Shown: positions 27,259-50,354 of the stretch, one piece after another
Layout of the letters: every line of letters begins with the position of its first letter
Position numbering within the stretch: the first letter of the stretch is position 1
Source of the DNA: Sinorhizobium sp. RAC02
GTDB lineage: Bacteria; Pseudomonadota; Alphaproteobacteria; Rhizobiales; Rhizobiaceae
Assembly: GCF_001713395.1 (NCBI RefSeq)
Contig: NZ_CP016451.1
Coordinates: forward strand, 1 to 64,000
Length of the DNA stretch: 64,000 bases
Direction of reading: 5' to 3'
The notes under the pieces: generated by a model
Database searches by the model: none
What the model saw: only the letters and a program-made list of their open reading frames with translations
Told to the model about the DNA's origin: nothing
Program-made: the position numbers and the translations under genes

Positions 27259-28059
27259 ATGAAGAAATTGCTTGCGGCCGTCTGTGCCCTCACGTTTTGC
27301 AGCGCAATGCCGTCATGGGCAGAGACGAACATAATCTGCACGCTCGTTGTCTCAGCGGGAACTGGAAAGCCGCTTCTTGAGGAGGGCGATTGCAACCGAC
27401 GGATGTCGCCTGCTTCAACATTCAAGATAGCGATCAGCCTGATGGGTTTCGACAGCGGCATTCTTGAAACGCCGGAAAGGCCGCTTCTGCCCTTTAAAGA
27501 AGGCTACATAGATGCCCGTCCCGAATGGAGGCACTCGCAAACCCCCAAAAGCTGGATGCGAGATTCCGTGATCTGGTATTCGCAGCAGACAAACCTTCAG
27601 CTCGGCATGAAGAAATATACGGCCTACGTGAAGGCATTCGAATACGGCAATCAAGACCTTTCCGGGGAGCCCGGCAAGAGCAATGGCCTGACCCATGCCT
27701 GGCTGAGCACCTCCCTGCAAATCTCTCCTAGGGAGCAGATCACATTCATTCGAAAACTGGTTCGGCATGAACTTCCGGTGAGCAACGCGGCCGTGTCGAA
27801 TACCAGCACAATCCTCGATCAAGGGATGAAGGGCGGCTGGCACGTCTTCGGCAAGACCGGCGCTGGCGGCATCAGAACGGCAGACGGGAAGCTGAAGACT
27901 CCCTTTGGCTGGTATGTCGGTTGGGCAAAGAGAGGAGACGAAACCGTTGTCTTTGCTCGATTGATCCAGGATACTGATCGTCAGCCTACGCCTCCGGGTC
28001 CCCGTGCTCGTGACGGGTTGATGTCGTCTGTGTTTTCAACAAGGGGCGTATTGGAATAG
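27259..28059 (+). CDS. Class D (OXA-type) beta-lactamase
   Basis: 266 residues with a signal peptide (LAAVCALTFCSAMPSWA), so exported to the periplasm. All class D motifs are present: STFK with the catalytic Ser53 and Lys56; Ser103-Val-Ile; YGN at 129-131; Trp148 in the THAWLSTSLQIS segment, equivalent to the Trp that protects the carbamylated Lys; and KTG at 199-201. It should hydrolyse penicillin-type beta-lactams; the spectrum cannot be predicted. Start MKKLLAAV at 27259; an upstream extension to 27082 is rejected. Next to repC, followed 37 bp later by a LysR gene in the same direction. Confidence 0.9.
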   Translation: MKKLLAAVCALTFCSAMPSWAETNIICTLVVSAGTGKPLLEEGDCNRRMSPASTFKIAISLMGFDSGILETPERPLLPFKEGYIDARPEWRHSQTPKSWMRDSVIWYSQQTNLQLGMKKYTAYVKAFEYGNQDLSGEPGKSNGLTHAWLSTSLQISPREQITFIRKLVRHELPVSNAAVSNTSTILDQGMKGGWHVFGKTGAGGIRTADGKLKTPFGWYVGWAKRGDETVVFARLIQDTDRQPTPPGPRARDGLMSSVFSTRGVLE

Positions 28060-33614: not shown

Positions 33615-34766
33615 CTACTGAACAAGCCTTGCGGCCCGTCCTGTCCGTCTGGTTGCGTTGTTGTAATAAGTGGAGGCCTGCTGGACCGATCTATGTCGCG
33701 ACTGCTCCATGGCTTCCGGCAGGGGAACTCCACGATTGGCGGCCTCCGTGAGATAGCCTGACCTCAACCCATGCGCCGAAAACTCCTCAGGCTCCAGCCC
33801 GGCCAGCGCCGCCCGCTGCTTGACGATCTGGTTGACTGCGCTCGGCTCCAGCGCCCGCTTCGAAACATTACCCCAACGATCGATCTTCCGAAAAACACTC
33901 CCGCTTTCAACCTTGCAAGCCGCAAGCCAGGCGTTGAGCGCATCCACGGGCCGGCCCGTCAGATAAACGACCTCATCGTGCTCGGAGCCGGATGTTTTGG
34001 TCCGACCCAGATGGATGGCAAGAGAGGGGAGGGGAGGGCCGTTTTCGACTGTGATCGGCGGCTCGACCGAGAGCTGCTCCCTGCGCAACCCGGCAATCTC
34101 GCTGCGACGCCGTCCGCCGGATGCGAACGCCACCATCAAAATTGCGCGGTCACGGATGTCGCGCAGGCTGTCGGTGCCACAGGTCGCGAGCAGCTTGGCA
34201 AGGACATCTCCCGTGACCGCCTTCGCGCTCTTGCGTTTTCGCGGCCGCGGCGTCGCGCGGGCAGCGAGGCGTATCGCGGATTTCAGCGAAGGGGCGGAGA
34301 AGACACCGGTCAGCCCGCGCCATTTTGTCAGCGTCGACCAACTGGCAAGCCGCCGGCGCACCGTATCGGGCGCATGCGGTCCGGAAGATCGAAGGAAGCG
34401 TTGCTCGCGCAGGCTTTGCTCGACATTTGCTGGCATGCCGTGTTGAGGATCGATGTCGCGCTGTTCGGGCTGCCAGAGATGGTGGGCGACGAATTTCAGC
34501 AGCAGCGCTTCCGGAGCCGGCCAGGGGAGGCAGGCACCGGTCGCGGCGAGAGACCAGGCCTGGAGATAGGCGAGGTCGGAGGTGAGCGCGCGCAGCGTGT
34601 TTACGCCCATGCCCTCATTGACCAGATGGCGCAGCGTTTCGACATCCTGGTCGGTCAGCAGTTCGGCCAGTTCGTCGCGCCGGTCGATCGGCAGGACGCT
34701 GGCGATGGTGTCGAGTTCGTCGGCCCGGTGATCGACGGCGGTCTTGGAAATGGACGGTTTGGCCAC
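33615..34766 (-). CDS. Tyrosine recombinase / phage-type integrase
   Basis: About 383 residues from a GTG at 34766 (MAKPSISK); a GTG at 34853 would add 29 residues but sits directly against GGAGG. N-terminal SAM-like core-binding domain (GMGVNTLRALTSDLAYLQAW) and C-terminal catalytic domain with the first Arg in ASGGRRRSEIAGLR, the HGLRSGYLT box, the second His in SRHRSVQQ and the nucleophilic Tyr in ASTYYN. This type is common beside DUF1612/RHE_PE00001 genes on rhizobial plasmids as I recall. The gene is divergent from that gene here. Confidence 0.9.
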   Translation of the reverse strand: MAKPSISKTAVDHRADELDTIASVLPIDRRDELAELLTDQDVETLRHLVNEGMGVNTLRALTSDLAYLQAWSLAATGACLPWPAPEALLLKFVAHHLWQPEQRDIDPQHGMPANVEQSLREQRFLRSSGPHAPDTVRRRLASWSTLTKWRGLTGVFSAPSLKSAIRLAARATPRPRKRKSAKAVTGDVLAKLLATCGTDSLRDIRDRAILMVAFASGGRRRSEIAGLRREQLSVEPPITVENGPPLPSLAIHLGRTKTSGSEHDEVVYLTGRPVDALNAWLAACKVESGSVFRKIDRWGNVSKRALEPSAVNQIVKQRAALAGLEPEEFSAHGLRSGYLTEAANRGVPLPEAMEQSRHRSVQQASTYYNNATRRTGRAARLVQ

Positions 34767-34857
34767 AGAGAAACTCCGGATCGGCGGTTTTTGGCGGCCG
34801 AGTGGCCGTGGATTTACCCGATTCTTTCTGATTTGAGACTCGAAATCAATCACCTCC

Positions 34858-34938
34858 GATAAGGGTTACTTATCGATGGTTAGACGCCCAACCGGCAACC
34901 ATACCATGTGAGGAACCATAATATTAATATAGAGTTCC
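34858..34938. promoter_or_regulatory. AT-rich operator-like region with nested palindromes
   Basis: In the spacer between the recombinase and the DUF1612-type gene: GATAAG-5 bp-CTTATC at 34858-34874; one inverted and two direct copies of AACCAT between 34876 and 34920; and a dyad of GGAAC and GTTCC around ATATTAATAT at 34912-34938. A divergent, probably autoregulated promoter region is inferred. Confidence 0.5.
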
Positions 34939-34965
34939 TATAGCAAATCATTTACCATAATTTCA

Positions 34966-36096
34966 ATGGCTTACGACCTCGCGAAAATCAGCATGACAGC
35001 CCTGATGCGACCGGCTTTCGATGCCGGCATCGCGCTCACGCGTCTCGACGAGCGCATCGCCCGCTCGCCGGTCGGCGAGGGTTGGATCGAGCGATCCCAC
35101 TTCTCTGATGCCTGCGCCTCGCTGTGGATCGACGGCGAGCTCGTCCATCTCGAAGACCTCGTCCTCCACGACGCCACCCGCGATATTCGCACCCCGACCC
35201 ATGAGCTGACAATCGCCCGCGACGTGCTGCGCACCCGCCGGCGCGTTGCCGCCCAGCTACCCGGCTGGGCGCTGTCGATGGACGGGGTTCGGACGCTGCG
35301 AAAGACCTCGGAGATCACGGCGGCTGACACGGACGAGGCGACGACTGCCGATGCCATCCGGCGCGCGGTCGCAAACGATCCGGAAGGGGAGGGGGACGTC
35401 GCCGACGACATCGAAAATCTCCCCGGCGTTGACTACGCTGCAATCGATGCCGTGCTGGCCCGATCGGAGGCGGCGATCGAGAACGCCAGACGGCCGAGCC
35501 ATGGCGGCGGTCAGGACAAAGATCCGATGATCTACGATCTCGATTGGGACGAGGATGCCAGGCTTGACGAGTGGCGCGGCGTGCTGCGCCAGGCCGAAAA
35601 CCTGCCGGCGGTGCTGCGGGCGATCACCGCCCTCGATGCCTGGAACGAGCTTTCCGTTCTTCAGCACGCGCCCTGGCTGGGCCGGCTGTTTTGCGCGTCG
35701 ATCCTGCGCCAGGCCGGTATCACCACCGGCGTACATCTCGCGGCGATCAACCTCGGCCTGAAAACCATTGCCGTCGATCGCCGCCGCAACCGCGACCGGG
35801 AGACGCGGCTGCTCGCCATCGCCCACGGGTTTTTGGCCGCCGCCGAGATCGGGCTCAGAGAACATGACCGGCTGGCAATGGCGCGAAAAATGATGGAGCG
35901 GAAGCTGGAGGGGCGGCGGACGTCTTCAAAACTGCCTGAACTGGTCGAGCTGGTGATGGCAAAACCCTTGGTGTCGGCCGGGATGGTGGCGAAGACGCTC
36001 GAGGTCACGCCGCAGGCGGCGCGGCGGATCGTTTTGGAACTCGGCCTGCGCGAGATGACGGGGAGGGGGAGGTTTCGCGCGTGGGGTGTTCTTTAG
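34966..36096 (+). CDS. RHE_PE00001/DUF1612-type DNA-binding protein
   Basis: 376 residues. N-terminal region has [17 protein letters not shown] and [20 protein letters not shown], resembling Fic/DOC-like N-terminal helices; a charged linker follows; the C-terminus [20 protein letters not shown] is a clear HTH. The family is widespread on rhizobial plasmids and commonly neighbours tyrosine recombinases. Function unknown; a plasmid-maintenance or regulatory role is plausible. Very GC-rich compared with its AT-rich promoter. Confidence 0.75.
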
Positions 36097-36481: not shown

Positions 36482-37768
36482 ATGCCAGGCAAGGTGCGTG
36501 TATTCATCAGCAGCACGATGGAGGATTTGGCCAATGAGCGTCAGTCTGTCGTCGAACAAGTCGCTGGTCTTGGCCTTGAGCCGGTCAACGCAGAGGGGCT
36601 GTTGCCGAATGGTTCGGGCAGCTGGGATCTGCTCTCCGACGAAATCGAGAACTCTCACATCTTTGTTCTATTGATGGGTGATCGGTATGGCTGGATACCT
36701 GATCGCGGGCCCGGCGCCGCAATGGACAAATCGGTAACGCACCTTGAAGCGGATCTTGCGAGAGCGTCGAGCCTCCCGATACTTCTGTTTGTAAAACGCC
36801 TCAAGTATGGCGCAGATTCAGCGAGCCCCGATGCCATAAGGCGCGATAAGTTCCGCAAGGAGGTTGGCGCGTGGGAAGACGGTCAGTTCCGTGCCGAATT
36901 CGACCTCGCCATAGACCTTGGGCACAAGGTCCGGGAGGCCCTCCAGGGTGTCTTCCAAGACACTTACTTGAAGCGCGCCGTCCGGAAGAAGGAGTTGTCC
37001 AACGCGCCCTCACCCCAGGCGATTGATCAGGTGCCTCCGGTGCCATTGGCCGTTCCCGGCACCTCTGCCGGATCAGTGCTGCTGGCCGGCGCCGGGTTTT
37101 CGATCTCGGCCGGCTACCCAACAGCAAGCTCGCTAGCCGAAATACTCGGCAACCGGCTTGGGCTCACCCTGAACGGTTCGGAGATGCTGGAGCGGCATTC
37201 GTTTGCGGAGATAGCGTCTTTCGCCGAAAGGAAGATGGGGCGTGGGGCCCTGGTAGGCGTTATTCGTGAATTGCTTGACACCCCCATCCCGGTCAAGCCC
37301 ACCCCTGCTCACATTCGGGCTGTCCAATCCTTTTCATCAATCTTCACGACGAACTACGATCTTCTGTTTGAGCGCGCATGTCAGCTTACGGGAAGGAAAT
37401 ACGCCGTCGCAACGCCTCATCGCCCCCTACCTGATCCGGCTGCCGTGACCATTTATAAGATCGATGGCTCGATCGACGACCCCGACACGCTTGTTCTCAC
37501 CCACCACGACGCCACACGCGCTGCAACGGCCAAGGCGTTTTGGGAAGCGGTCAGTGGTTTGTTGACCACACACGGCGTTGACGTAATAGGGCATTCAATC
37601 AGGGACGTCACAAGCCAACGGCTCCTGTCCGCACGAAACCTCTCCCTGCCAGGAACCTATGTATGCCCGTATCTCGACGAGCTCGACATGATCAGGCTCG
37701 CGACTTACGGCCTCAAGGGCGTCATCGAGACGGCGGAAAGTTTTCTGACCCCATCGAAGTCAACATGA
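36482..37768 (+). CDS. DUF4062-SIR2 fusion, putative NAD+-processing defence protein
   Basis: 428 residues. Residues 1 to ~110 are DUF4062-like (RVFISSTMEDLANERQSVVE, then HIFVLLMGDRYGW). After a linker comes a SIR2-type domain: LLAGAGFSISAGYPTASSLA (~198-218), IFTTNYDLLFE with Asn291, and VIGHSIRDVTSQRLL. The usual KxHG motif reads YKIDGSID, so Asp328 replaces the catalytic His. In known defence SIR2 proteins Asn and His are needed for NADase activity, so this one may be inactive, altered or a sensor. A run of Gs rather than AGGAGG precedes the ATG. Followed 166 bp later by the TIR-KAP gene in the same direction. Confidence 0.82.
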   Translation: MPGKVRVFISSTMEDLANERQSVVEQVAGLGLEPVNAEGLLPNGSGSWDLLSDEIENSHIFVLLMGDRYGWIPDRGPGAAMDKSVTHLEADLARASSLPILLFVKRLKYGADSASPDAIRRDKFRKEVGAWEDGQFRAEFDLAIDLGHKVREALQGVFQDTYLKRAVRKKELSNAPSPQAIDQVPPVPLAVPGTSAGSVLLAGAGFSISAGYPTASSLAEILGNRLGLTLNGSEMLERHSFAEIASFAERKMGRGALVGVIRELLDTPIPVKPTPAHIRAVQSFSSIFTTNYDLLFERACQLTGRKYAVATPHRPLPDPAAVTIYKIDGSIDDPDTLVLTHHDATRAATAKAFWEAVSGLLTTHGVDVIGHSIRDVTSQRLLSARNLSLPGTYVCPYLDELDMIRLATYGLKGVIETAESFLTPSKST

Positions 37769-37934
37769 CAATATGCAAATTTGCGGCCAGCTTTATGTGC
37801 GCAGGCGCAGTCAGAGAGCCGCAGTCGATGGCGTCTGGAATTGTTCGCCGTCTGCTTGCATGGAACAATAGAAATCGAAATGTGAGCAATCCCCAGGGGC
37901 TCGATGTAGGCCCGGGGTTGTCGCCGGGGGGCAC

Positions 37935-40900
37935 ATGGCAGAAAGCGCGAATGCCGATGATATCTTCCTTCTTTATAATGAGAAGGAAGAAGATATTGAT
38001 CCAATCGCTCAAACCCTAAAATCAGCCGGCCTTTCAGTATATTTCTATCGGCGGGATTTGCCCGTCGGAAGCGATATCCAGGCGGTTGAATCCGAGAAGC
38101 TTCGGTCGGCGCGAGCTGTGGTCGTGCTGCTTGGCAAGCACGGTTGGGGACCTACCCAGAGAGAGATTGCTTTCCAGGCAGAGAGCCTCCAGAAGATTAT
38201 CGTTCCGGTCTTGATCGATGAGCCGCCCGCCGATGCTCTGACCGACGTAGACGGCATGTTCCAGCGCAGGCGCCGCATAGACTTTCGTGAACGTGCGGTG
38301 ATCGGACATGTCGAGCTAGCCCTGGAGATACAAAATCTCCTTGATCCCGCCGGTGGGGCCAAATCGCCGCGCTATGACGACATCTTCAAGACCCTGTTCG
38401 ATGGTAGTGAGGCTGATCGCCTGGAATTGCTGAACTTGATCATCGCCCACGGCTTCAGAGACGCACAAACTCTCGCAGATAAGCTCGTCGACGCGATCGT
38501 CGGCGATTTTTCACCAACACGTCAAAATTCGTTCGAGGCATCGATCCGTGATCCCAACCGGCTTCCCGCTGCACGATCCTGGATGCTGAGCGTACTGCTA
38601 TGGCTTCGCGTTGAGGACGATAACCACACCAAAGTCATTCTCGATCATGTCGATTACGCGAAGGAGAATGACAGAGCGGTCAGATTTTGGACCTTGGCGG
38701 GGATCATCCAGACTGACCGATCCTGCCGCACCGCAGCCATAGAACAGGCCCTCGACGATCCCTCTCCTGAGGTGGCGGGGTTGGCCCGCGTTTCCAGGGA
38801 CCCATCGGATGATGCCGTGTTGAATGATCTCAGAGTGGCCCTCTCGTCAGAGAGGTTCGAGACTGTTTGGTGGGTCCTGCGGGTCCTGCGCATCTTCCCG
38901 GTTCCTTCCCTGGCAGCGGACGTGGTCAACCAGCTTGGCCGAACGGCTGACGGAAGGTCGTTGGCTTACGACGCACTCTTTGCGCTCTCGAGCGCGTCTA
39001 TCAGGAGTGCGGCGCGACCACACATCCTGGAGCACATAGGCTTGACGGCCCTCGCGCGCATCGTCGTTGTGGAATCAAGAAATTCCACACCCATATCACT
39101 CGATGCATTCGCGCGCGTACTTTCTGCGTTTGAGCGAAATGAGGCGACCCAGGCCCTTGAGACCGCCGCCGAGGACGCTGAAGATCGGCGGCTTGTGGGT
39201 CGGCTCATCGACAGGATCGAAGCGCATCAGGCTGTTGTGACTGAGACTGATCCGAGGCTGCCAGGTCATGCGCCAGACATTATCGACATTGGCAAGGATG
39301 ACATTGGTATCCGACGTGACGTCCAGACATTGACATCGGTCATGCTGTCGCGAGAGGTCGAACCTCCTCTAGCTATCGGCCTTTTCGGGGAATGGGGATC
39401 GGGAAAGAGCTTCTACATCAAGTCGCTCGAGGCAGAGGTCGCGGCAATTTCCAATCGCCCTGCGGGCGGTCCTTATTGCACCCGGGTGGTCCAGATCAAT
39501 TTCAACGCCTGGCACTATGTCGACACCAACCTATGGGCAAGCCTGGTAAGCCACATCCTTGAAAGCCTTGCGGCGTACCTGACGCCCTCGAAAAGTCCGG
39601 AAGAACAGCGCGCGGCCTTAGCCGGCGAACTTACCAGCGCCAAGGAAGAGGTGGCCATCGCGACCGAAGAGCAGAAGCTCGCATCTGATCTGCTGAAAAA
39701 CTCCACCGCGGAGCTGCGGAGAAAGGTCTTCGAAAGGGAGCATTCGGAGATTAAGTTGCGTGACCTGCGAGCTCAAGACTTTGCAGATCTGCTGAAGGGC
39801 GATGAAGACCTGTCTGCAGCTCTGCGCGGCGCTTTTGATATGGTCGGCGCACCCGCCCTGCTGGAAAGCGCATCGGAGTTGGACGGCGCTGTGAGGGACG
39901 TCTATTCCACGGTAGGAAAGACGAAAGCATTCTTTGTTTCCATCTTTACTGGCAGGAATGCGCTGATCATTCTCCTTGGAATGTTAGTCGTACTCGGCCT
40001 GCCGCCGCTAGTGTGGTCCCTTCGTGAGCATCTCGGCACCTATCTGGCAAATGCTACCGCTATCGTGGGAACGATTGCGGCCACCTTGGGATCTGCTGCA
40101 GCGGTACTGAAGAGCGCGGTGACCAAGTTCAAGGCTGGACTGGAGGCGGTCTCGGCCGCGAAGTCCAGGGTCGATGAAGGATTGGCTGCGAAACGGGCGG
40201 TCATATCTCACAAAGAAAAGCAGCTTCAGCAGCAGGTCGCCGATGCGGTGGCTCAGGAAGCTGCGGCCTCCGGACGGGTAGAAGCTGCTGCCACTCGTGT
40301 GCGGGAGATCGAGGAGAGGCTCACAGCCTTGAAAGATAGCCAGTCACTTGGCTATTTCATCACGGAACGGACCAAGTCCGACGACTACCGTCGCCATCTC
40401 GGTCTGATCGCCACCATTAGGAAAGACTTCGACGGGTTGGTGGAGCGAATTCAAAATGATGCCGACGGCGTTGACCGGATCGTTCTTTATATTGACGACG
40501 TTGACCGTTGCCCTCCCGAGATGGTGGTCGAGATTCTGCAGGCGGTCCACTTGCTGCTCGCCTACAAGCTGTTTGTCGTGATCGTGAGCGTTGACCCCCG
40601 GTGGCTCCTGAAATCGCTTGGCTCAAGCATTCCTCAGATGCAGTCAGAAAATGACGCTCAGGCTAACCAAGTGGCGACACCACAGGACTACCTCGAGAAA
40701 ATCTTCCAGATCCCATTCACGGTCCGTTCGATGGGGAAGCCTGGATTTGGAAGATTGATGGATCGCCTGCTGACACCAGCCACCGAAGATATAGAACTGA
40801 CTGGAGTGTCGAACGAGGGCGTGACGCCACGAAGAGGAGCCTCGCGGGACGAAACGGGGGCGAACGACAGTGACGGAAAGCAGCAGCCTTCGTCGGAGGG

Positions 40901-41429
40901 AAACATTGACCCGTCGCCGAATACAGCCTCGGCACCACCCGAGCCGAAACTGGTTGAGCTCGCTGTGCCGGCGCAGGCCCTCTCCATCACTTCGATTGAA
41001 ACAGAGTTTGCTCGTGGCCTATATATGCTCCTTGCCACCCCCCGAAGTGCCAAGCGCTTTGCGAACATATATCGTTTGTTGAAGGCCTCCTTGTCGGCCG
41101 AAGCGCTCCCAGCATTCGAGGGTCGATCAGCAGTTCCTGGCACCTTCCAGCTACCCATGCTGCTGCTGGCGCTTCTGGTAGGTAAACCCCAATTGGCGGC
41201 GAAGCTGTTCCCCATATTTCTGGCTGGCGCGAAATCAAATGACGACGACTGGTGGGAGGCTGGATGGAACGGTTTGGGGCGTCCAGAAGAGGAGATCCGA
41301 AGTCGTCTAGCCCCGATTGTCGAGATGGGTTATTTCCCCGGATCACCACAGCATGTGGTCCAATGGTTGCCGCAAGTCGCTCGGTACTCGTTCATAACAG
41401 CAAGCATATTCTTAAAGGAGACGAGCTAA
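37935..41429 (+). CDS. TIR domain-KAP family P-loop NTPase with membrane hairpin
   Basis: 1164 residues. Residues 1-~135 are TIR-like (DDIFLLYNEKEEDIDPIAQT, LPVGSDIQ, then GPTQREIAF with candidate catalytic Glu77). ~140-430 is a helical-repeat region. A KAP NTPase core follows: GLFGEWGSGKSFYIKSLE (Lys491), INFNAWHYVDTNLWASLV, then a coiled-coil/membrane insertion with two hydrophobic helices at ~675-730, and Walker B VLYIDDVDRCPPEMV (Asp854). KAP ATPases are membrane-associated STAND-like NTPases; TIR domains in defence cleave NAD+ or make signal nucleotides. The likely logic is that NTPase sensing triggers the TIR effector, with the upstream SIR2 protein as partner. Confidence 0.85.
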   Translation: MAESANADDIFLLYNEKEEDIDPIAQTLKSAGLSVYFYRRDLPVGSDIQAVESEKLRSARAVVVLLGKHGWGPTQREIAFQAESLQKIIVPVLIDEPPADALTDVDGMFQRRRRIDFRERAVIGHVELALEIQNLLDPAGGAKSPRYDDIFKTLFDGSEADRLELLNLIIAHGFRDAQTLADKLVDAIVGDFSPTRQNSFEASIRDPNRLPAARSWMLSVLLWLRVEDDNHTKVILDHVDYAKENDRAVRFWTLAGIIQTDRSCRTAAIEQALDDPSPEVAGLARVSRDPSDDAVLNDLRVALSSERFETVWWVLRVLRIFPVPSLAADVVNQLGRTADGRSLAYDALFALSSASIRSAARPHILEHIGLTALARIVVVESRNSTPISLDAFARVLSAFERNEATQALETAAEDAEDRRLVGRLIDRIEAHQAVVTETDPRLPGHAPDIIDIGKDDIGIRRDVQTLTSVMLSREVEPPLAIGLFGEWGSGKSFYIKSLEAEVAAISNRPAGGPYCTRVVQINFNAWHYVDTNLWASLVSHILESLAAYLTPSKSPEEQRAALAGELTSAKEEVAIATEEQKLASDLLKNSTAELRRKVFEREHSEIKLRDLRAQDFADLLKGDEDLSAALRGAFDMVGAPALLESASELDGAVRDVYSTVGKTKAFFVSIFTGRNALIILLGMLVVLGLPPLVWSLREHLGTYLANATAIVGTIAATLGSAAAVLKSAVTKFKAGLEAVSAAKSRVDEGLAAKRAVISHKEKQLQQQVADAVAQEAAASGRVEAAATRVREIEERLTALKDSQSLGYFITERTKSDDYRRHLGLIATIRKDFDGLVERIQNDADGVDRIVLYIDDVDRCPPEMVVEILQAVHLLLAYKLFVVIVSVDPRWLLKSLGSSIPQMQSENDAQANQVATPQDYLEKIFQIPFTVRSMGKPGFGRLMDRLLTPATEDIELTGVSNEGVTPRRGASRDETGANDSDGKQQPSSEGNIDPSPNTASAPPEPKLVELAVPAQALSITSIETEFARGLYMLLATPRSAKRFANIYRLLKASLSAEALPAFEGRSAVPGTFQLPMLLLALLVGKPQLAAKLFPIFLAGAKSNDDDWWEAGWNGLGRPEEEIRSRLAPIVEMGYFPGSPQHVVQWLPQVARYSFITASIFLKETS

Positions 41430-41511: not shown

Positions 41512-42987
41512 TCAGTTTCCGATCAGCCCCGCCTCGTCATCGCTAGATTGGGTGGGATCGACCGGCTGCGCCTTTGCTGGAGGCGTAAGTTCGTGCGAAA
41601 TACTCTCCCGCCTAAAACCAATCTCATACAAACGATGAAGATTGTCGTCATTGACGTCAGAAGACAGCTGCACAGTCAGCGCTTGAACCCCTGCATTAGC
41701 CTTCAGCAACGCTTCCAGCAACTCACGTTTCGTGTCTTCAGAAATCCCGATCAAAGAAAAACTTAAGCTGTTCTCCCGACCAGTCTCAGGCACTCGCACG
41801 TCTTGCCGCAGGTCTTCGCTTTGGTTTCGGGGTGGAGCCGATAAACGGTTTCGAAGTGCCGTGAGCAAATGGTCGAGGTTGGGTGCTCCGGTTTCTATGC
41901 GCCGACCAATCGGCTTCGCGCCGATTCGATCCAGCGTATCACGCACAAAGGACGGGGACTGTTCGTATTTAACATATGCGATCGACGCTTGAGCCCACTT
42001 GTCTGATCCTCTGTTGGTCAACCATTCAGGTTCCGGGTCCGAGAGTAGAGCGGCGTTAGCATTTGTGCGAAGCATGTCCATCGTCTGGGCGAACAACGGG
42101 CGACTCCATTTGGAATTAGGAGGGGCGCTCGATGCAATCGTAAGTGGATGAGATTGATCGACACCACGTTTTTTGGCTAACGGTTTGCGGGTCAAAACGC
42201 CAAATGGAAGCAGGAGGACGGTCTCAACGCCTTTTTGCGCGAACAGATCCGCAATTTCCTCGCTGATTTTCGTTCCGTAAGCGAGCGCCACCGTGACGTC
42301 TGCCCCGGAGACCGCGAGTTCCGCTGCGATCGAATGCAGCGCTTTCATTTCCCGATCGCTCGGCTGGCGCGAAGGCAGAAGCGCCAGCCATTTACGCCTC
42401 AGCAGATCTTGCCGACCCATCACGAACAGGGGGCTTGTAGCCTTCGATGCGTAGGGATGATCCTCAAGGATTTTGTAGCCCAACTGCTCAACACTACCTC
42501 GCTCGTCCGAGGAAGGTTGTGTCACAGTCTTGCCGGCTCTGTGGGATGCTGCCGGCTCGAAAACGAAGACATGAGCGTTCACTCCGTCAAGCTTTTGACG
42601 GATCATTTCGGATACGCGGTCCCAATCCAACCCTCCATGACCGCATCCCAAAGCAGGCAGGGCAACCGTTACCGGCCCGACGGTATCAAGGTAGGCACGG
42701 AGATCATCTAAACCAGCATCAATGTCTTCATATCGCGAAGGGTCGCGCCAATCGCGTTTCGTAGGGAAGTTTATGACCCAATCGCCGCTCAGGGATTTCC
42801 ATACGTGCATTTTTCCAGGTCGCACACGGCCAGCTTTGCAGTCATCTCGATACTCCTTGAACATTTCGGGATAGTGCTGCTTGAACGCCAAGGCGACACC
42901 GGCACCCATGACACCGACACAGTTGACCGTGTTCACGCGAATGTCGGCCTTTGTGTCGAATAGGTCGCCTTGTATAAAATCCAGCAT
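41512..42987 (-). CDS. DarG-like macrodomain antitoxin fused to a SLOG/DprA-like domain
   Basis: 491 residues from ATG 42987 (GGAAGAG upstream). Residues 1-~155 are a DarG/TARG1-type macrodomain: NTVNCVGVMGAGVALAFK, VINFPTKRDW with Lys77 at the position of the catalytic Lys of de-ADP-ribosylating macrodomains, and ALPALGCGHGGLDWDRV. Residues ~175-300 look like a Rossmann SLOG/DprA fold (RKWLALLPSRQPSDREMKAL, VTVALAYGTKISEEIADLFA, VLLLPFGVL). The C-terminal ~190 residues are unassigned. Expected to remove ADP-ribose that the DarT protein puts on DNA. Lies 20 nt downstream of darT, last gene of that pair. Confidence 0.83.
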   Translation of the reverse strand: MLDFIQGDLFDTKADIRVNTVNCVGVMGAGVALAFKQHYPEMFKEYRDDCKAGRVRPGKMHVWKSLSGDWVINFPTKRDWRDPSRYEDIDAGLDDLRAYLDTVGPVTVALPALGCGHGGLDWDRVSEMIRQKLDGVNAHVFVFEPAASHRAGKTVTQPSSDERGSVEQLGYKILEDHPYASKATSPLFVMGRQDLLRRKWLALLPSRQPSDREMKALHSIAAELAVSGADVTVALAYGTKISEEIADLFAQKGVETVLLLPFGVLTRKPLAKKRGVDQSHPLTIASSAPPNSKWSRPLFAQTMDMLRTNANAALLSDPEPEWLTNRGSDKWAQASIAYVKYEQSPSFVRDTLDRIGAKPIGRRIETGAPNLDHLLTALRNRLSAPPRNQSEDLRQDVRVPETGRENSLSFSLIGISEDTKRELLEALLKANAGVQALTVQLSSDVNDDNLHRLYEIGFRRESISHELTPPAKAQPVDPTQSSDDEAGLIGN

Positions 42988-43007
42988 CGCTCTTCCGTCA
43001 AACCTTC

Positions 43008-44333
43008 TTAAATTGCTGCCAAGCACCGTCGGTAAACCAGATCCGCTTTCGCCTGATCCCACCAGTGCTCCTGTAGCGACAGGACGTCCGCTTGACCAAG
43101 GACGAAGAGCATATTGAGCTCGTCTTTGTCATCAACGACATCGATGATTTGCCGTTCGTCTCGGTCGCGGCCTAAGACATCACCAACTAGATCATGATAG
43201 CACACCAATTTCATCAACGTCGCCGCCGAGTTTGGCTTTACGGTTCCAACATGTTTGGTTAGGATCTCGGCCATCATCGGCATGGCGCCGACGGGATGAT
43301 TGGGATCAACCTTCTGAAGGCCTCCATTGCTGGTCCACCGTGCCTTCGGACCTTTTCCGATATCGTGCAAATAAGCGGCAATCTCGGCGAGCTTCTTTTG
43401 CCTGTCTCCGAGGGCCGCATATCCCGGTAGACTGACAAGGCGCTCAACGACGTCCTTGGTATGCAAATCAACAGTCTGTTTGTGGATACCAGCATTGGCG
43501 GATGCTAAACCCACGAGTTCGGCGGTGTGCGGGACGCAACCGAAATTGGCACGAAGTCCAGCGAGCAGCGCGGTGAGGTTTTTGAAGTCTGCGGTCGCGA
43601 CGTGCTTCCCACCGTTCTGAATGACGTGATTCTTGTAATGGTTATAGTGCAGGAGTATCTCGCCCGGTCCTTTAACCAGGCTCGAGCCGTCTTTTAGTTC
43701 TAGGTTTTTGTAGTAATGTCTGCGGCTTCGATCCTCGAACTCGATGGCGGGAAATGCCGAATTGCCAACGATCTGCTGAACCCGCTTTTTCACGCTATCA
43801 TTCCAGACGACACAGCGCGAAGCGGCGGTAACTGGAACATAGCCGTGTACTAGAGCCTCAGCCATGCGCCGGTGGCGGTGCGCTTCATCCAGGCTCCCCC
43901 ACTTCGTATAATCAATCGCGGCCCAATCGAGCTGATCGAGTTGATCGCCTGATGCGTAGAATTGTGGAGGAATCGCGGTGTTCGCCGATGCGTTTGTAAA
44001 GACGGTGTCCGGCCGATCGACGATAGAGATCGGGAACTCGAAATAAAGAATGTCGTATTGATCAACGTTCTTCGCGTTCACCACGCCGAGGAGCATCGGG
44101 CTCAAAGCACCGAAATAGAACGGCACGTAGTCATGTACGCAACCTCCAGGTCCACAAGTGACATTCATCGTGGCGCGGCGCTCCTGGATCCCCGCAGAAG
44201 CGATAGATCGGTGTCGTCTGGGAAAGGCGTGATGATTGGTCGCCAAAAAACCGGTTTGAAGAAGGCCCGGTAGATTTTCGATATGAGAAAAATGATAGAT
44301 GAAGCGATGTGCGAACTGCACTGGAATTGGCAT
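43008..44333 (-). CDS. DarT-HD fusion, DNA ADP-ribosyltransferase toxin-like
   Basis: 441 residues. Residues 1-~200 are DarT/DUF4433: FIYHFSHIENLPGLLQTGFL (NAD+-binding), IQERR with Arg52/53, CVHDYVPFYFGALSPML, and RRMAEALVHGYVP with Glu159, aligning with the catalytic Glu of DarT. The C-terminal half has a complete HD metal-site pattern: His290 (VDLHTKDVV), His322-Asp323 (LHDIGKG), His345 (NHPVGAM) and His379-Asp380 (YHDLVG). DarT links ADP-ribose to bases in ssDNA; the HD domain would be a phosphohydrolase. Start at 44333 follows a GGGGGG tract; a further start at 44381 is less likely. Operon with the macro-SLOG gene. Confidence 0.85.
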   Translation of the reverse strand: MPIPVQFAHRFIYHFSHIENLPGLLQTGFLATNHHAFPRRHRSIASAGIQERRATMNVTCGPGGCVHDYVPFYFGALSPMLLGVVNAKNVDQYDILYFEFPISIVDRPDTVFTNASANTAIPPQFYASGDQLDQLDWAAIDYTKWGSLDEAHRHRRMAEALVHGYVPVTAASRCVVWNDSVKKRVQQIVGNSAFPAIEFEDRSRRHYYKNLELKDGSSLVKGPGEILLHYNHYKNHVIQNGGKHVATADFKNLTALLAGLRANFGCVPHTAELVGLASANAGIHKQTVDLHTKDVVERLVSLPGYAALGDRQKKLAEIAAYLHDIGKGPKARWTSNGGLQKVDPNHPVGAMPMMAEILTKHVGTVKPNSAATLMKLVCYHDLVGDVLGRDRDERQIIDVVDDKDELNMLFVLGQADVLSLQEHWWDQAKADLVYRRCLAAI

Positions 44334-44729
44334 AGGTCCCCCCACATTATCGGATCGAATTAGTAACGGTATGCAACCCATAGTTGATTCCGAATGTGGC
44401 TACTCTCTTAAGCGTTTTTCAGTGCTTATGGCGAACCCATATCGGAAATACCTCTGTATCATAACGTGCATATCAATGCGAACAATCGTGCGGGGGTTGT
44501 TTTGAGGTATATGCGTCGCCAAACCGTTGGAAGGGACGTAATCTCCGTATCTGGCAATCATTATCGCCTGTTAGTTCACTGCAAACTATCCACTGACCGT
44601 TTCAGCAGAAAGCGGTGATGATCATCCAAGTAGGCTTGCGTCAAAGGGTTGTTGTTGTTTCAAGATCAGCCGATAAAGTTGTTCCGGCCGACGGAAGATA
44701 TTGATGCATTGTTCAAGTGAGGGGGTATC
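44334..44729. other. Divergent promoter region between darT-like and sir2-herA operons
   Basis: A 396-bp AT-richer spacer. No gene was recognised. It must hold promoters for both directions. Confidence 0.55.
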
Positions 44730-46058
44730 GTGGCAGATTCCAATGGAGAAGAGCCTAAGAAATTGACATTTCAATTTCTTAGGGGGAGCGATGCTGACGC
44801 CGGTGAGCTCGAATGGCCAGCCGGCGCCGATGTCGTCAGGAAAGCGCTATCGGAATCGTTGCACGCAAAGAATGTCGCGTTCCTATTAGGCGCAGGGTGC
44901 TCATCATACTATTCCAAGGAGACTGACATCCTGGGGGACGAGGAGTGGCGGGAGGTCGGCATCCCAACCATGGCACCGCTCGCCAAGGAGTTCACAAAAG
45001 CACAAACCGTCGACGAAGCAGGGTTTCCGACCTCCGCTGAGCGGAAAGTTCTCACCGACGAGTTCGGGATCGATATTGGCGACAAAGAATATGCCCGCAA
45101 CCTTGAACGGTTGATGGAATTGCTGTTCAGCCTTCGGTTCTCGCTTTCCCGAAGCATGCTTGCGAAGGCAAAAGACAATCTGAAGGTCGTAAATTCGATC
45201 ATCCAGAAGGTTCAGGCTTTCCTTTGGCGAAATTGTACGAATGGGGCGTTCGCCAATGGCGACAGCACCGTCTTGGCGCTCTACGAGACGTTCTACAGAA
45301 AGCTGGTTCTGCGTGATCGCTCGCTGCCGCGCCCGTGGATTTTCACCACCAACTATGACCTTTTCAACGAGACGGCGATGGACCGGCTCGGTTTGCCTTA
45401 TGCCAACGGTTTCTCCGGTGTGGTCGAGCGCCGCTTCAATCCGGCGACCTTCCGCTATGCCCTTGCCGAGCAACTCGATGTGACCAACCGGAAATGGTCG
45501 GCTGTTGATGGCTTCGTCTATCTCTGCAAAATCCATGGGTCGATTAGCTGGACGGAAGACGATCACGGCTTGTTCCCGATCCGCGAAACGGCTGTCTCGA
45601 AAGGGCAGGGACCGGGCAAGGTGATGATCTATCCCACCCCCGCGAAGCAAAATTCTAGCCTCGGATCGCCCTATGCCGACCTGTTTCGTGAGTTCCAGTC
45701 GCGGATCGTGAGGGAGCAAAGCGTTCTCTTCACCATGGGGTATGCCTTCGGCGATGAGCACATCAACAACATCATCTACCAGGCGCTGACCATACCGACG
45801 TTCCGCCTAGTAAGTTTCGTCGATCCGACGCTTGAGGGAGAGGTGGCGAAACTCCGCGCCCTAAACGATCCCCGCATCTGGATCATCGGTGGCAGCGGCC
45901 CACAGGCCGACCGCAAGGCGCATTATTTCGATACAATCATCGATGAGTTCATGCCCCAACGGCCGAGCGAGCGCATTGACGATGCAATTCGGAAAGTGCT
46001 GGAGGCGATGTCCCCGAAGAAGACTGAGGCTCCGTCCACCGATGGAGACAGCGAATGA
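44730..46058 (+). CDS. SIR2-family NADase of a SIR2-HerA defence system
   Basis: 442 residues from a GTG preceded by GAGGGGG. SIR2 motifs are intact: FLLGAGCSSYYS, IFTTNYDLFNE (Asn208), CKIHGSISW (His269) and FTMGYAFGDEHINNIIYQ. Defence SIR2 proteins degrade NAD+ on infection and kill or arrest the cell. The stop overlaps the herA ATG by 4 nt (ATGA), so the two are co-translated. A perfect 12-bp inverted repeat lies in codons 9-18. Confidence 0.9.
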   Translation: MADSNGEEPKKLTFQFLRGSDADAGELEWPAGADVVRKALSESLHAKNVAFLLGAGCSSYYSKETDILGDEEWREVGIPTMAPLAKEFTKAQTVDEAGFPTSAERKVLTDEFGIDIGDKEYARNLERLMELLFSLRFSLSRSMLAKAKDNLKVVNSIIQKVQAFLWRNCTNGAFANGDSTVLALYETFYRKLVLRDRSLPRPWIFTTNYDLFNETAMDRLGLPYANGFSGVVERRFNPATFRYALAEQLDVTNRKWSAVDGFVYLCKIHGSISWTEDDHGLFPIRETAVSKGQGPGKVMIYPTPAKQNSSLGSPYADLFREFQSRIVREQSVLFTMGYAFGDEHINNIIYQALTIPTFRLVSFVDPTLEGEVAKLRALNDPRIWIIGGSGPQADRKAHYFDTIIDEFMPQRPSERIDDAIRKVLEAMSPKKTEAPSTDGDSE

Positions 46059-48073
46059 GCCGCGACGACCGCAAACGCGCCATCGGCAAGGTGGTCTCCG
46101 TCGCAGCGGACCGCTTCGTCGTCGAGATGCACGCCGGCACGGATAATTTCACCGTCGTCGGGTTCGATGACGTTCACTATGTCGCCCGTCTGGGCTCGTT
46201 CCTGATGATTCCAGTTCAGACGGAATATGTCGTAGTTGAGGTTGTCGGCCTGCGAGAGCGGGACCTCGCCAGCGCCGGCCGAGGCGAAGGGGAGTTGGAC
46301 AAGGCGGCGTCAGCGAAATATCTCGATGTCGTACCAGTGGGAATGCTGCCTCAGAATCGCGGCGATCCGTTCCGCTTCGGCGTATCCGTCTTTCCATCGC
46401 TCTACGCGGATGCGCTGTATGCTCTCGATGCGGAACTAGATCGTGTGTTCGAGACCGATAGGCCGAGCGAACCTGCGCCGGGCCTGAATGGCGCTGCACC
46501 AGTACCTGATGATGCGACGCGCTTTCGTGCCCTGTCGATCGGTCGATCGGTGGTGTTCGACGGCTACGACGTCAAAGTCCGGATCGACGATTTTTTCGGC
46601 GGACATACCGCTGTGCTTGGGAATACGGGGAGCGGCAAGTCATGCACCGTGGCCTCGGTGCTCCAGTCGTTGTTCGACAAGGCGGACGAGTTCCAAGCCC
46701 GAGGGGCGACCTTCGTGGTATTCGACGTGAACGGGGAATACGCCAATGCGCTGATGCCGCTCGCCAAAGAGAATGGCATTGGAGTCGCTCACGTTGTTCT
46801 GGATGGGACCGCGTCCGACGGAAAGTTCCGCCTTCCGCATTGGTTCCTAGAGCAATCCGAATGGGAGCTGCTGCTGCAAGCCAGCGAGCGGACCCAAATT
46901 CCGGTTCTTCGTACAGCTTTGGGTCTGACAGGGCTGTTTCGGAAGAGCACTCCGGAAGCGCTGGCGATCAAGGAGCACTTTATCGCCACCTGTGTCATTG
47001 AGTGCTTCCGGGGTGCTGATGGGGACTCGCCGGTCGCAAAGTTTCAGCGTGTCGTGTCGTTATTGCAGAAGTATCCGACGAAAGACTTGAACACTAACCT
47101 TCTGCAAAAATACGGGGCAAACTACCAGTACGGCAATTTCTCCGGCGGAAATCTGGCCCCATTTCTGGATGAGGTTCGCAAAAAGCTCCGGGAGGGTGTT
47201 GATCTACCATCCTACAATCGGTCGCCATTCACATTTGATGATCTTGAAGAGTGCCTGGATTTTGCGATCCTTTACGAAGAAGCGCATGGCAACAGGCAAA
47301 TTCGTGATTACTGCTCTCAGATGTTTACCCGATTCAAGTCGCTCCGCGATAGATCCGAATATGCCTTCATGCGCTATGACATCAAGCCGGGTGAAACCAT
47401 ACCGACCATGGAGGCTTTCCTTGAGCAGCTCCTTGGATTGTCAAAGAATGGCAAGCATTGGCAAAAACGCCATCAGATCATTATCGTCGATATGAATGCT
47501 GTTGAGGACGAGATAGTCGAACTGGTCTCCTCGGTACTCGCGCGCATGACATTCCGCTTGCTCAGGCAAGCCGAGCCAAGAAACCGCTTTCCCGTTCACC
47601 TCTTGCTTGAGGAGGCCCATCGTTACATCTCCGAGACACCCTCAAAATATGCGATTGACGCCAGCAAGATCTACGAGCGCATCGCCAAGGAGGGGCGAAA
47701 GTACGGGCTTTTCTTGTTGGTCGCATCGCAACGACCAAGCGAACTTTCGAAAACCGTTCTCTCGCAGTGCTCGAATTTTGTAGTCCATAGAATCCAGAAT
47801 CCGGATGACCTCTCCCAGATCCGGCAGATGACGCCTTTCATTTCGGAAGCGGTTCTGAAGCGTTTACCCTCTTTGCCGAAGCAGCACGCGCTCGTTTTCG
47901 GAACATCCGTGAACCTCCCGACCACTTTCAAGGTCCGAGCAGCGAAACCGCTTCCGAAAAGCGATGACGCGAAGATCAGGGAACTCTGGTTCCACGAAGA
48001 GGGACGTGCGGCTCAAATCCGGATCTCTGTGCCACCTGTCCAGAATGTCGGTCCAGGGGGCGTATTCGGCTGA
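46055..48073 (+). CDS. HerA-type hexameric ATPase of a SIR2-HerA defence system
   Basis: 672 residues. N-terminal HAS-barrel-like part (GKVVSVAADRFVVEMHAGTD), then a FtsK/HerA ATPase: FGGHTAVLGNTGSGKSCTV with Lys195, FVVFDVNGEYANALMPLA, IIIVDMNAVEDEIVEL as Walker B and LFLLVASQRPSELSKTVLSQ, then CSNFVVHRIQNPDDL. SIR2-HerA pairs are a described anti-phage type in which HerA assembles with SIR2 and controls its NADase. Starts inside the sir2 stop. Confidence 0.92.
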   Translation: MSRDDRKRAIGKVVSVAADRFVVEMHAGTDNFTVVGFDDVHYVARLGSFLMIPVQTEYVVVEVVGLRERDLASAGRGEGELDKAASAKYLDVVPVGMLPQNRGDPFRFGVSVFPSLYADALYALDAELDRVFETDRPSEPAPGLNGAAPVPDDATRFRALSIGRSVVFDGYDVKVRIDDFFGGHTAVLGNTGSGKSCTVASVLQSLFDKADEFQARGATFVVFDVNGEYANALMPLAKENGIGVAHVVLDGTASDGKFRLPHWFLEQSEWELLLQASERTQIPVLRTALGLTGLFRKSTPEALAIKEHFIATCVIECFRGADGDSPVAKFQRVVSLLQKYPTKDLNTNLLQKYGANYQYGNFSGGNLAPFLDEVRKKLREGVDLPSYNRSPFTFDDLEECLDFAILYEEAHGNRQIRDYCSQMFTRFKSLRDRSEYAFMRYDIKPGETIPTMEAFLEQLLGLSKNGKHWQKRHQIIIVDMNAVEDEIVELVSSVLARMTFRLLRQAEPRNRFPVHLLLEEAHRYISETPSKYAIDASKIYERIAKEGRKYGLFLLVASQRPSELSKTVLSQCSNFVVHRIQNPDDLSQIRQMTPFISEAVLKRLPSLPKQHALVFGTSVNLPTTFKVRAAKPLPKSDDAKIRELWFHEEGRAAQIRISVPPVQNVGPGGVFG

Positions 48074-48215: not shown

Positions 48216-50354
48216 TCAATTGCTGTCGCGACGAAAATCCAGTTTGAGCTTGTCTTGGTACACGCCAATGCGTTTTTTGGCTCGGTCGATCACGTCGCTG
48301 AAATGCAGTATTTCGAAATAGGTCTCGCCAAGCGACATACGCGTTACTGGATCCTTCAACTCGCTTGATTGAAACCAGCCCTTACCTGTCGGGAACGGCG
48401 TCCAGTTCCCGCTCAGACGCAGCGTGTTGACGCTGTCGCCGATAAGGTAGCCATAGAATTTCCTGAGTTTTCCGCCGGACTTTGCAGCAAGCAGCTGGGC
48501 ATATTCCGAAAGGTCACCGATATGCTCGTCGGTGGAAACACCAGGCGCCTTGAACTCGACGATAATAGCGGAACCCTCCTTGCTGAAAACCGCGATGTCG
48601 GGACGCTTGCCACCATTGTCATTCGTGCGTTTTGCAAGAACCTTTCGGAGTGCCTCGTCGATGTCGCTTTCGAACACGTTGGTGTCATCGTTCCACTTGA
48701 TGTTTGCGAGCGGCAAGTCCGAGGCGATATAGTCGTAATACTGGTACTCTTCGCTGAGCAGCCAGATATCGTGATCTGTCGTCTCGGTGCTGTCTTTGCG
48801 CATCGGGAAAAAGATGCTGTGGATGATCTGTTCGTCCTTACGTTTGACCCCATCGACGGGGGCTTGCATAGCAAGCCGCTGGCCGCAAGCGAGATCGAGA
48901 ATATCGACGATTGCGGCACGGCGTACAATGAGCTGCGACAGGTTTGCCATGTCGAAGTTCTTGAGCGACGACGTATATTTCCAGGAAAGCTCATGGATTT
49001 TTTGGCGGAACTCGTCGGAGTCCGGCTCGGATGCCATGATCTCCTCCTTGAGGCTGAAGATCGCAGCGGTCTCGTCGATGACGGCCTTCTGGTATTTGGT
49101 CAACACGCGTTCGGCGACCGACTGGGCGGATTCGCCATACACGATCCTCGTCTTTGTGTCCTGTAGCATCGCTTCGCTGATGCCGAACTGGTGGGTGGCT
49201 TCCTTGAGCACCTCCTCCTTCTTCCAGTCAGAAGGAGTGACCATCTCGTCGATGACCGGGTCGAGTGCCTCGTGAATGTCTGCATAGGACAGTTTTTCCG
49301 ACGAAAACATATCGCCGCTCGGAATCTCGTCGGGAATATTGTCGAAGTCGTCGCGCTGCTCGTTGACGCGGGCGTCCAGATAGTCGGCCTCGATCAGCAC
49401 AATGTGATGGAAACCGGCCACCGGATTGTTTTGCTCGGTGCGCGTCCGCAGGTAGTGACTCGTGATGTCCTTCACAGGCGTGGACTTGGCACAGAAGGCG
49501 ATGGCGTTGCGCGGAAGATCATACTGCTCAGCGTTGAGCTGGTAGTGGGAGAGCTGGAACGTTTGCCGTGTGTCGAGATGGTCCCCAGATGCAGGATCAC
49601 GTTCTTCGACATCAACAATCCGCTCGGCAGTGACTGCGGGCAGGTCGGCGAGCCGCAGCACTTCGATTTTCTCCTGGTCGTCCTTCCAGTGCCGTGTGGT
49701 GAATCGGATTTCGAAGTTGCCAAGCTGTTCACCGAGTCCGACTAGCCGCTGTAGGAAAGCGACGAGCATCTGCTTTTTCAGCGCCGGCGCCGAGAAGAGA
49801 GTGCTCAGGGCGTCGCCGTGGGATACGCGCGGGCGAACGGTCTCTTTGAATTGCTCAAGCCGGATCAGGGTCCCAATGTCGGCTTCAGCGCCCGGCGCAG
49901 ATTTGAAATCATCGGTCTCGATTTGCTTCTGCGGCTCGGAATACTGTAACTCACGCTTGAGGACCGTCTCACCGGCTCGGTAGCTACTTGTGATCCTCAT
50001 GGCTGCGAAATGATGGAAGAACTGGATGCGCCCGGCACCCTTGCACTTTCCGATGCCGGAGATGGAGAGATCGTCCTTGTAGGACGTATCTTTTGTAAGA
50101 AACGCCTTGAGTTGGTCGTCGCCGAGACCGCATCCATTGTCGCCGCATGATACGTTCATCAGTTCACGGTCGTCGAGCAAGTCTGCGCGCAAGAAATCGA
50201 CTCCGATCGCAATATTCATGTTCGGCGCGGATGGGTCGCTTGCTCGCCGGATTAGATACGCGTCGATCGCATTGGCGATAAGTTCTTCGAAGACCACGTA
50301 TTGATTCAAGCTGAGCTTGGTATTTTTGATGCTTCCCCTGATGTCGAGCGTCAT
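48216..50354 (-). CDS. GHKL (Hsp90/MutL-like) ATPase fused to PD-(D/E)XK-like nuclease
   Basis: 712 residues from ATG 50354. N-terminal GHKL ATPase: VVFEELIANAIDAYL (Asn28), CGDNGCGLGDDQ (Asp72) and SGIGKCKGAGRIQFFHHF (lid/G2). A long helical middle follows. The C-terminus has RPDIAVFSKEGSAIIVEFKA, with the Asp ... Glu-Phe-Lys602 pattern of PD-(D/E)XK nucleases. ATP-driven dimerisation that controls a nuclease, as in MutL-like or GHKL defence proteins, is the inferred mode. Convergent with herA (142 bp between stops). I do not recognise it as a named system. Confidence 0.78.
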   Translation of the reverse strand: MTLDIRGSIKNTKLSLNQYVVFEELIANAIDAYLIRRASDPSAPNMNIAIGVDFLRADLLDDRELMNVSCGDNGCGLGDDQLKAFLTKDTSYKDDLSISGIGKCKGAGRIQFFHHFAAMRITSSYRAGETVLKRELQYSEPQKQIETDDFKSAPGAEADIGTLIRLEQFKETVRPRVSHGDALSTLFSAPALKKQMLVAFLQRLVGLGEQLGNFEIRFTTRHWKDDQEKIEVLRLADLPAVTAERIVDVEERDPASGDHLDTRQTFQLSHYQLNAEQYDLPRNAIAFCAKSTPVKDITSHYLRTRTEQNNPVAGFHHIVLIEADYLDARVNEQRDDFDNIPDEIPSGDMFSSEKLSYADIHEALDPVIDEMVTPSDWKKEEVLKEATHQFGISEAMLQDTKTRIVYGESAQSVAERVLTKYQKAVIDETAAIFSLKEEIMASEPDSDEFRQKIHELSWKYTSSLKNFDMANLSQLIVRRAAIVDILDLACGQRLAMQAPVDGVKRKDEQIIHSIFFPMRKDSTETTDHDIWLLSEEYQYYDYIASDLPLANIKWNDDTNVFESDIDEALRKVLAKRTNDNGGKRPDIAVFSKEGSAIIVEFKAPGVSTDEHIGDLSEYAQLLAAKSGGKLRKFYGYLIGDSVNTLRLSGNWTPFPTGKGWFQSSELKDPVTRMSLGETYFEILHFSDVIDRAKKRIGVYQDKLKLDFRRDSN

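Follow-up and report, generated by a model that had tools for sequence, protein, structure and literature searches.

Two adjacent plasmid genes of Sinorhizobium sp. RAC02, encoding a DUF4062-SIR2 protein and a TIR-KAP NTPase, as probable independent defence candidates

The question raised by this locus is if two neighbouring open reading frames (ORFs), ORF1 encoding a DUF4062-SIR2 protein and ORF2 encoding a TIR-KAP NTPase, act together as one defence system, as a preliminary description of the DNA had proposed, and which of their domains would carry out the chemistry. The genes lie within the first 64,000 nucleotides of contig NZ_CP016451.1 of Sinorhizobium sp. RAC02; this whole stretch is termed the window. 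Both are on the plus strand and start with ATG, ORF1 (36482..37768) encoding 428 amino acids and ORF2 (37935..41429) 1164 amino acids, as had been described, and a simple scan of the 166 bp gap between them (37769..37934) found no promoter-like or terminator-like site. Pfam matches bore out the reported domains, DUF4062 and SIR2 in ORF1 and TIR and KAP NTPase in ORF2. Each is a real gene, judging from the protein matches, 98 with ORF1 and 1963 with ORF2, out of about 8000 candidates scored in each search. The reading that we favour, and hold to be probable, is that ORF1 and ORF2 are independent single-gene defence candidates accumulated in plasmid cargo, with DUF4062 the NADase of ORF1 (NAD, nicotinamide adenine dinucleotide), its SIR2 domain auxiliary, and ORF2 an ATPase switch.

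Occurrence of ORF1 and ORF2 relatives in other genomes

Fourteen other loci of ORF1 architecture were examined (L003-L011, L014, L083, L084, L086 and L098), including a 43% identical copy of ORF1 in the 4.15-Mb contig of the same genome (L086). A TIR-KAP gene was present in 0/14 of them within the locus stretches examined, and, at an expect value (E) of 1e-20, in 0/12 of their host genomes or records (L086 and L098 excluded; two of the twelve being single plasmid records). The same TIR-KAP profile does detect the gene in Sinorhizobium sp. RAC02 itself and in Hymenobacter sp. M29, and the latter provides the reverse case (0/1): its genome has a full-length TIR-KAP gene and no full-length DUF4062-SIR2 gene, the sole match to ORF1 being a SIR2 domain in a differently built protein encoded on another contig. 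Downstream of the Hymenobacter gene the ORFs run in the opposite direction, and upstream a mechanically called 183-amino-acid ORF lies on its strand. The TIR-KAP genome searches gave 1/297, 3/385, 2/398, 1/7 and 1/247, with our own genome in the first three and Hymenobacter in the last two (the large searches scored at most two candidates per genome for the TIR-KAP profile and at most five for the ORF1 profile); the other genomes with a profile hit (G297, G636 and G720) matched from profile position 399 or beyond, which is the KAP part and not TIR. Because homologues of the two genes do not co-occur in the loci, in the genomes or in the reverse case, the two-gene proposal of the preliminary description was rejected as the favoured reading, and ORF1 plus ORF2 as a conserved two-gene system is not supported.

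The neighbours of ORF1-type genes differ from locus to locus, and thus fit a mobile single gene. They include a TPR protein in two Kosakonia, SMC-like and nuclease-STAND proteins in R. ruizarguesonis, an adenosine deaminase in Vibrio, a PD-T4-6-like kinase in one Pseudomonas, a weak SIR2-STAND protein in another Pseudomonas, and SIR2-HerA in three rhizobial loci. Counting the window, SIR2 and HerA genes share a locus with an ORF1-type gene in 4/14 cases (L008, L083, L086 and the window) and are absent in the other 10. In an R. etli plasmid (L083:8001-12755) and in the 4.15-Mb contig of our own genome (L086:4290-9112) the ORF1-type gene stands directly upstream of SIR2 and HerA, and the SIR2 and HerA proteins of these two loci are 95-96% identical; a small KTSC-annotated gene follows HerA in L083. 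A fifth HerA case, broken by IS21, was considered for L084/L094 and dismissed, since the 72-amino-acid fragment beside the SIR2 gene shows no HerA similarity; that SIR2 gene had no match to the other SIR2 proteins tried. The ORF1-type gene of Mesorhizobium sp. LSHC420B00 (L008:9932-11310) is split over two frames and is probably disrupted or the product of a sequencing error.

Other matches to the TIR-KAP profile came from loci without a full ORF1-type gene. In a Rhizobium plasmid (L085:4663-10411) a KAP NTPase gene without a TIR match is followed by overlapping genes for a SIR2 protein (with a weak AAA match) and a nucleoside 2-deoxyribosyltransferase, and this is a possible three-gene KAP system. 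A Bacteroidales contig gave a TIR-like match at E 8.6e-6, with a DUF4062 protein of other architecture encoded a few kb away (L067:2799-3932 and 7408-8217). A phage origin of ORF1 and ORF2 was also considered and set aside: neither protein was matched among 50,697 phage records, and viral contigs gave no ORF2 relative and only a few of ORF1 (one full-length, L098, and two partial).

Predicted roles of the domains

The structures of both proteins were predicted with AlphaFold2, as the preliminary description had suggested; for ORF1 the mean predicted local distance difference test score (pLDDT) was 88.0 and the predicted template modelling score (pTM) 0.86. The DUF4062 (TIR-like) domain of ORF1 covers residues 6-92 (36497..36757, plus strand; Pfam E 9.4e-20), the match ending just past Glu89 (codon 36746..36748). 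A structure search with the ORF1 model returned a list filled by SIR2-domain matches, so that the DUF4062 fold rests on sequence: chain 10wc, the DUF4062 chain of KpSwz, was matched at E 6.7e-20 by the ORF1 family profile and at E 6.4e-7 by the single ORF1 sequence. A May 2026 preprint describes DUF4062 as a TIR-like NADase domain (PMC13174449). KpSwz consists there of DUF4062 and a winged-helix AUX domain, and the phage portal protein, bound by the latter, triggers NAD+ depletion and abortive infection, with Glu97 needed; the same source reports human TEP1 as an NADase requiring E1008, and three further purified human DUF4062 proteins as giving no hydrolysis (PMC13174449).

Glu89 is Glu in 95/95 non-gap rows of the 98-row ORF1-family alignment (P0098, partial and of other architecture, is left out of the ORF1 residue counts) and its column is Glu in 8/8 DUF4062 proteins of other architectures from the sampled loci. 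In the AlphaFold2 model it is the fifth residue of the alphaC helix, 11 residues before the next strand. The TEP1 chain 11gz carries the motif SVTEME, whose second Glu matches Glu89 and is E1008 if the 220-residue chain ends at 1113. Glu89 is, from this conservation and placement, likely the catalytic residue of DUF4062.

The SIR2-like domain of ORF1 covers residues 199-422 (37076..37747, plus strand), with the Pfam SIR2_2 match at residues 286-384 (E 3.3e-15). Its Asn291 (codon 37352..37354, within the TTNYD motif) is Asn in 97/97 non-gap rows and in 107/107 rows of a tree set made up of 92 database proteins of more than 380 amino acids, 14 loci and the window (P0098 is omitted from it, as are P0046, P0048, P0092, P0095 and P0097, these five being short or not taken). 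The position of the catalytic His was fixed in the alignment from the solved chains of KomC and KomC(H146N), which differ at the HG motif; the KomC His146 position is Asp328 in ORF1 (codon 37463..37465). Among 96 non-gap family rows this column holds Asp in 58, Val in 17, His in 8, Ser in 5, Arg in 3, Ala in 3 and Glu in 2, and on a quick tree of the 107-row set, whose midpoint root serves for drawing only and divides the rows into groups of 24 and 83, His is found in 11/24 and 0/83 of them, respectively. The earlier view of SIR2 as an NAD-related fold thus stands for the fold and the Asn291 motif and fails for the catalytic His. As the NAD-binding motifs are kept while the His is lost in most relatives, the SIR2 pocket fits a binding or regulatory role. 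With Glu89 invariant, the SIR2 His mostly lost and DUF4062 reported as an NADase domain in the preprint (PMC13174449), DUF4062 is the likelier enzyme of ORF1 and SIR2 a degenerate, perhaps nucleotide-sensing, auxiliary domain.

ORF1 would then act as follows. The N-terminal DUF4062 domain would be a TIR-like NADase with Glu89 as putative catalytic residue, and the SIR2 domain probably an auxiliary part with a sensing or restraining function, comparable to that of the winged-helix AUX domain in Swarozyc; a trigger would cause the DUF4062 domains to assemble, with NAD+ consumption and abortive infection as the outcome. A more specific version is tentative and rather doubtful: the SIR2 pocket, with its Asn and glycine motifs and no His, might bind NAD+, ADP-ribose or a related nucleotide and thereby restrain a live DUF4062 NADase, until the ligand changes upon infection or through NAD+ rebuilding by a phage and the enzyme is released. 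If true, the proposal separates which NAD-related fold does the chemistry from what SIR2 does after losing its enzyme role, adds a further architecture to the newly reported DUF4062 NADases, and predicts a control domain with a nucleotide-sensing function, for which one protein suffices as test material.

ORF2 (AlphaFold2 mean pLDDT 74.8, pTM 0.45) begins with a TIR domain at residues 10-119 (37962..38291, plus strand; Pfam TIR_2 E 3.8e-11), followed by a helical, solenoid-like region at residues 147-436 (38373..39242), nearly all helical in the model and mostly of high pLDDT; the homologue P0175 carries PF13646, which we take to be HEAT_2, in support of a helical solenoid. The KAP NTPase region with its coiled-coil/transmembrane insertion (39312..41423; Pfam KAP_NTPase at residues 470-1047, E 1.2e-26, and model helices) contains the Walker A motif FGEWGSGKS (39384..39410) with Lys491 and the Walker B motif VLYIDDVDR (40482..40508) with Asp854/855, and Lys491 and both Asp residues are invariant in 121/121 rows (ORF2 counts use 120 listed of the 1963 matches). 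A hydropathy scan placed two transmembrane-like segments at residues ~665-697 and 707-725 (39927..40109), between Walker A and B. A transmembrane insertion at this place is a hallmark of KAP NTPases. Intact Walker motifs were thus found and a membrane link is supported, both having been asserted beforehand. An ORF2 Foldseek search gave 0 matches at E <=0.001, the KAP part not having been searched alone; the 50 matches listed comprised TIR domains together with helical or composite proteins of low score.

Gln75 and Glu77 of the ORF2 TIR domain stand at the start of alphaC, and Glu77 is the fifth helix residue, 11 before the next strand in the model, as is Glu89 in ORF1. The window protein itself has Glu77, which is present in 16/119 family rows and requires 8 changes on a quick tree, and residue 75 is His or Gln in 118/119 rows; a conserved catalytic Glu is, from these alignments, not a TIR-family feature in the ORF2 family. 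The residues named earlier for mutation are partly ill chosen: Glu77 is seldom present and the SIR2 catalytic His is missing, which directs attention to Glu89 of DUF4062. ORF2 would be a KAP ATPase switch linked to the membrane and bearing a TIR domain at its N terminus. Given invariant ATPase motifs and a TIR Glu that is not conserved in the family, it more likely signals through ATP-driven assembly than acts as an NADase.

Plasmid setting of the defence-like genes

The contig that the window opens is 258,555 bp long, in a genome of 6.63 Mb in three contigs. The left half of the window carries trb conjugation genes and repABC of a rhizobial plasmid, and the top-ranked plasmid record for this stretch was from Agrobacterium rubi (88.6% over 90%); a plasmid class D beta-lactamase gene was noted at 27082-28059 (NF000270, 308.7 bits versus a cutoff of 280). 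An integrase gene and an RHE_PE00001/DUF1612 gene, common to many rhizobial plasmids, follow at 33615-36096. A 19-kb query matched 414 records, and this integrase plus RHE_PE00001/DUF1612 module was the matched stretch in 15/15 of those listed. About 120 bp from position 36200 are a remnant of IS21 istA, 79-88% identical to rhizobial sequences (20 listed of 149 records), several of which carry istA annotation. To the right of the module the G+C drops from about 0.64 to 0.57 and below and the genes turn defence-like: ORF1, ORF2, DarG/DarT, SIR2-HerA and a GHKL/nuclease-like gene. Both the IS21 remnant and the defence island of the preliminary description were thereby substantiated; genes that adjoin in such an island need not form one system, their proximity being weak evidence.

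The DarT/DarG pair is on the minus strand at 41512-44381, and the C-terminal parts of DarT and DarG show a weak HD match and a weak DprA-like match, respectively, both below cutoff. The SIR2 and HerA genes follow at 44730-48073 (PADLOC, SIR2 732 bits and HerA 1019 bits). The next gene, at 48216-50369 on the minus strand, encodes a 717-amino-acid protein with a weak N-terminal match to an Hsp90-type ATPase and weak C-terminal VRR_NUC and HSDR_N nuclease-like matches, all below cutoff, and with no PADLOC match.

Six records of the 15 listed for the rhizobial module were inspected, and 4/6 have defence-like genes within ~12 kb of it: a DUF4062 gene (L106), a SIR2 gene (L107), five TIR-annotated genes (L110) and a Mov34/MPN gene (L111). 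No obvious defence-like gene was seen within ~12 kb in L108 and L109. Two loci that were reached by way of their defence genes also bear parts of the module, the DUF4062-SIR2 locus L094 having the RHE_PE00001 gene and the KAP locus L095 both the integrase and RHE_PE00001. The module is a possible cargo hotspot on rhizobial plasmids.

Alternative explanations and known systems

Several points weigh against reading ORF1 and ORF2 as independent genes with DUF4062 as the NADase of ORF1. Each gene occurs in 1/297 sampled Rhizobiaceae genomes, that of the window, which makes their meeting less casual; the window was picked for holding both. The assemblies of P0001 (94% identical to ORF1) and P0100 (90% identical to ORF2) report the same longest contig, 398254 bp, the only such value common to all 98 ORF1 matches and the 120 listed ORF2 matches, so that the pair has probably been kept in one near relative; the adjacency probably persists there and was found nowhere else examined. 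PADLOC matched the neighbours of ORF1-type genes in only 1/10 of those scanned (1e-8). KpSwz has Ala in the Glu89 column, and its only nearby Glu, taken as Glu97, aligns with ORF1 His87, two residues before Glu89, so that the catalytic equivalence of the two Glu residues is not proven (KpSwz being the one tested DUF4062 protein in that alignment). The match of Glu89 to E1008 of TEP1 is something we infer, with the chain numbering assumed from the construct of the preprint (PMC13174449). Finally, Asp328 might still serve in an altered SIR2 chemistry.

This last point leads to the reverse assignment, implied by the order in the preliminary description, where SIR2 of ORF1 would be a true NADase using Asp328 in place of His and DUF4062 the sensor. 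We consider it quite unlikely, for position 328 varies across the 96 rows and Glu89 does not, and DUF4062 is the domain reported as an NADase (PMC13174449). A two-gene system assembled recently in this rhizobial lineage, in which KAP-TIR, as a membrane sensor of infection, switches on the NADase of the DUF4062-SIR2 protein, would account for the common strand, the 166 bp spacing and the shared 398254 bp contig of very close homologues of both genes, and has a distant analogue in the KAP, SIR2 and nucleoside-deoxyribosyltransferase genes of L085. It is nevertheless unlikely: there is no co-occurrence elsewhere among what was examined, a 166-bp gap is long for tight coupling, and a shorter TIR-KAP protein, 91% identical, comes from Ensifer sp. 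ENS09 (P0102) whereas the name Ensifer stands on none of the ORF1 matches, a weak point as most matches are nameless.

The partner of ORF1 could instead be the SIR2-HerA pair 7 kb downstream, with ORF1 as its accessory, since such a pair shares the locus in 4/14 ORF1-type loci and directly follows the ORF1-type gene on the same strand in L083 and L086. These two pairs, however, are near copies of one another, the SIR2 and HerA proteins of the window are only 25-28% identical to them, TIR-KAP and DarTG lie between the window pair and ORF1, the other 10/14 loci lack the pair, and no HerA is recognisable along with the SIR2 gene of the sister-clade locus L084; we hold this accessory role to be very unlikely. 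It is rather unlikely, too, that neither gene is for phage defence, their roles lying in plasmid competition or host stress. Many non-defence genes are found among the neighbours of ORF1-type genes, in keeping with such a role, but the window locus adjoins DarTG and SIR2-HerA, and each of the four folds (DUF4062, SIR2, TIR and KAP) is known from defence proteins that have been tested.

The preliminary description had not recognised the pairing as a named system, and neither ORF was found to match a named system in PADLOC-DB 2.0.0 or NCBIfam over its length. The literature searches found no paper using 'TIR-KAP' and none joining KAP, P-loop, SIR2, TIR and antiphage, and the phrase 'KAP ATPase' with phage or defence was absent among the matches listed. 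The KAP NTPase core of ORF2, with its invariant Walker motifs and intervening transmembrane-like segments, resembles those of QatA, PifA and PDC-S20 in PADLOC (QatA, 65 bits with PADLOC and 83.6 bits with NCBIfam), but ORF2 adds an N-terminal TIR domain and a helical region, and its adjacent genes are ORF1 and DarTG. QatABCD was therefore rejected, the 83.6 bits standing against a QatA cutoff of 600 and ORF1 and DarTG taking the place of QatB, QatC and QatD. From the TIR NADases (SARM1, AbTir and the TIR-APAZ of SPARTA) the ORF2 family differs in that the catalytic Glu is not conserved.

Thoeris consists of ThsA, a SIR2-SLOG protein, and a separate TIR protein, ThsB. ORF1 keeps the SIR2 fold with NAD-binding motifs, as in ThsA, DSR2 and KomC, but has Asp for the catalytic His and neither the SLOG domain of ThsA nor the large C-terminal part of DSR2; Thoeris was rejected, as ORF1 shows DUF4062 and SIR2 only, TIR is fused to KAP, and the homologues do not co-occur. 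SIR2-HerA stands in the same island and near ORF1-type genes in three other loci, but its genes are separate from ORF1. The likeness to Swarozyc (KpSwz) lies in the N-terminal DUF4062, a Glu at the start of alphaC, although that of KpSwz aligns two residues away from Glu89, and the single gene (PMC13174449). The C-terminal part of ORF1, however, has a SIR2 fold (residues 190-428) and not a winged-helix AUX domain, and a SIR2 fused to DUF4062 was not found by word search in the main text of that preprint, where SIR2 appears only in the discussion and references (PMC13174449). DUF4062 NADases having thus already been reported (PMC13174449), what is new here is a DUF4062 NADase candidate that carries a SIR2 domain lacking the catalytic His in most of its family.

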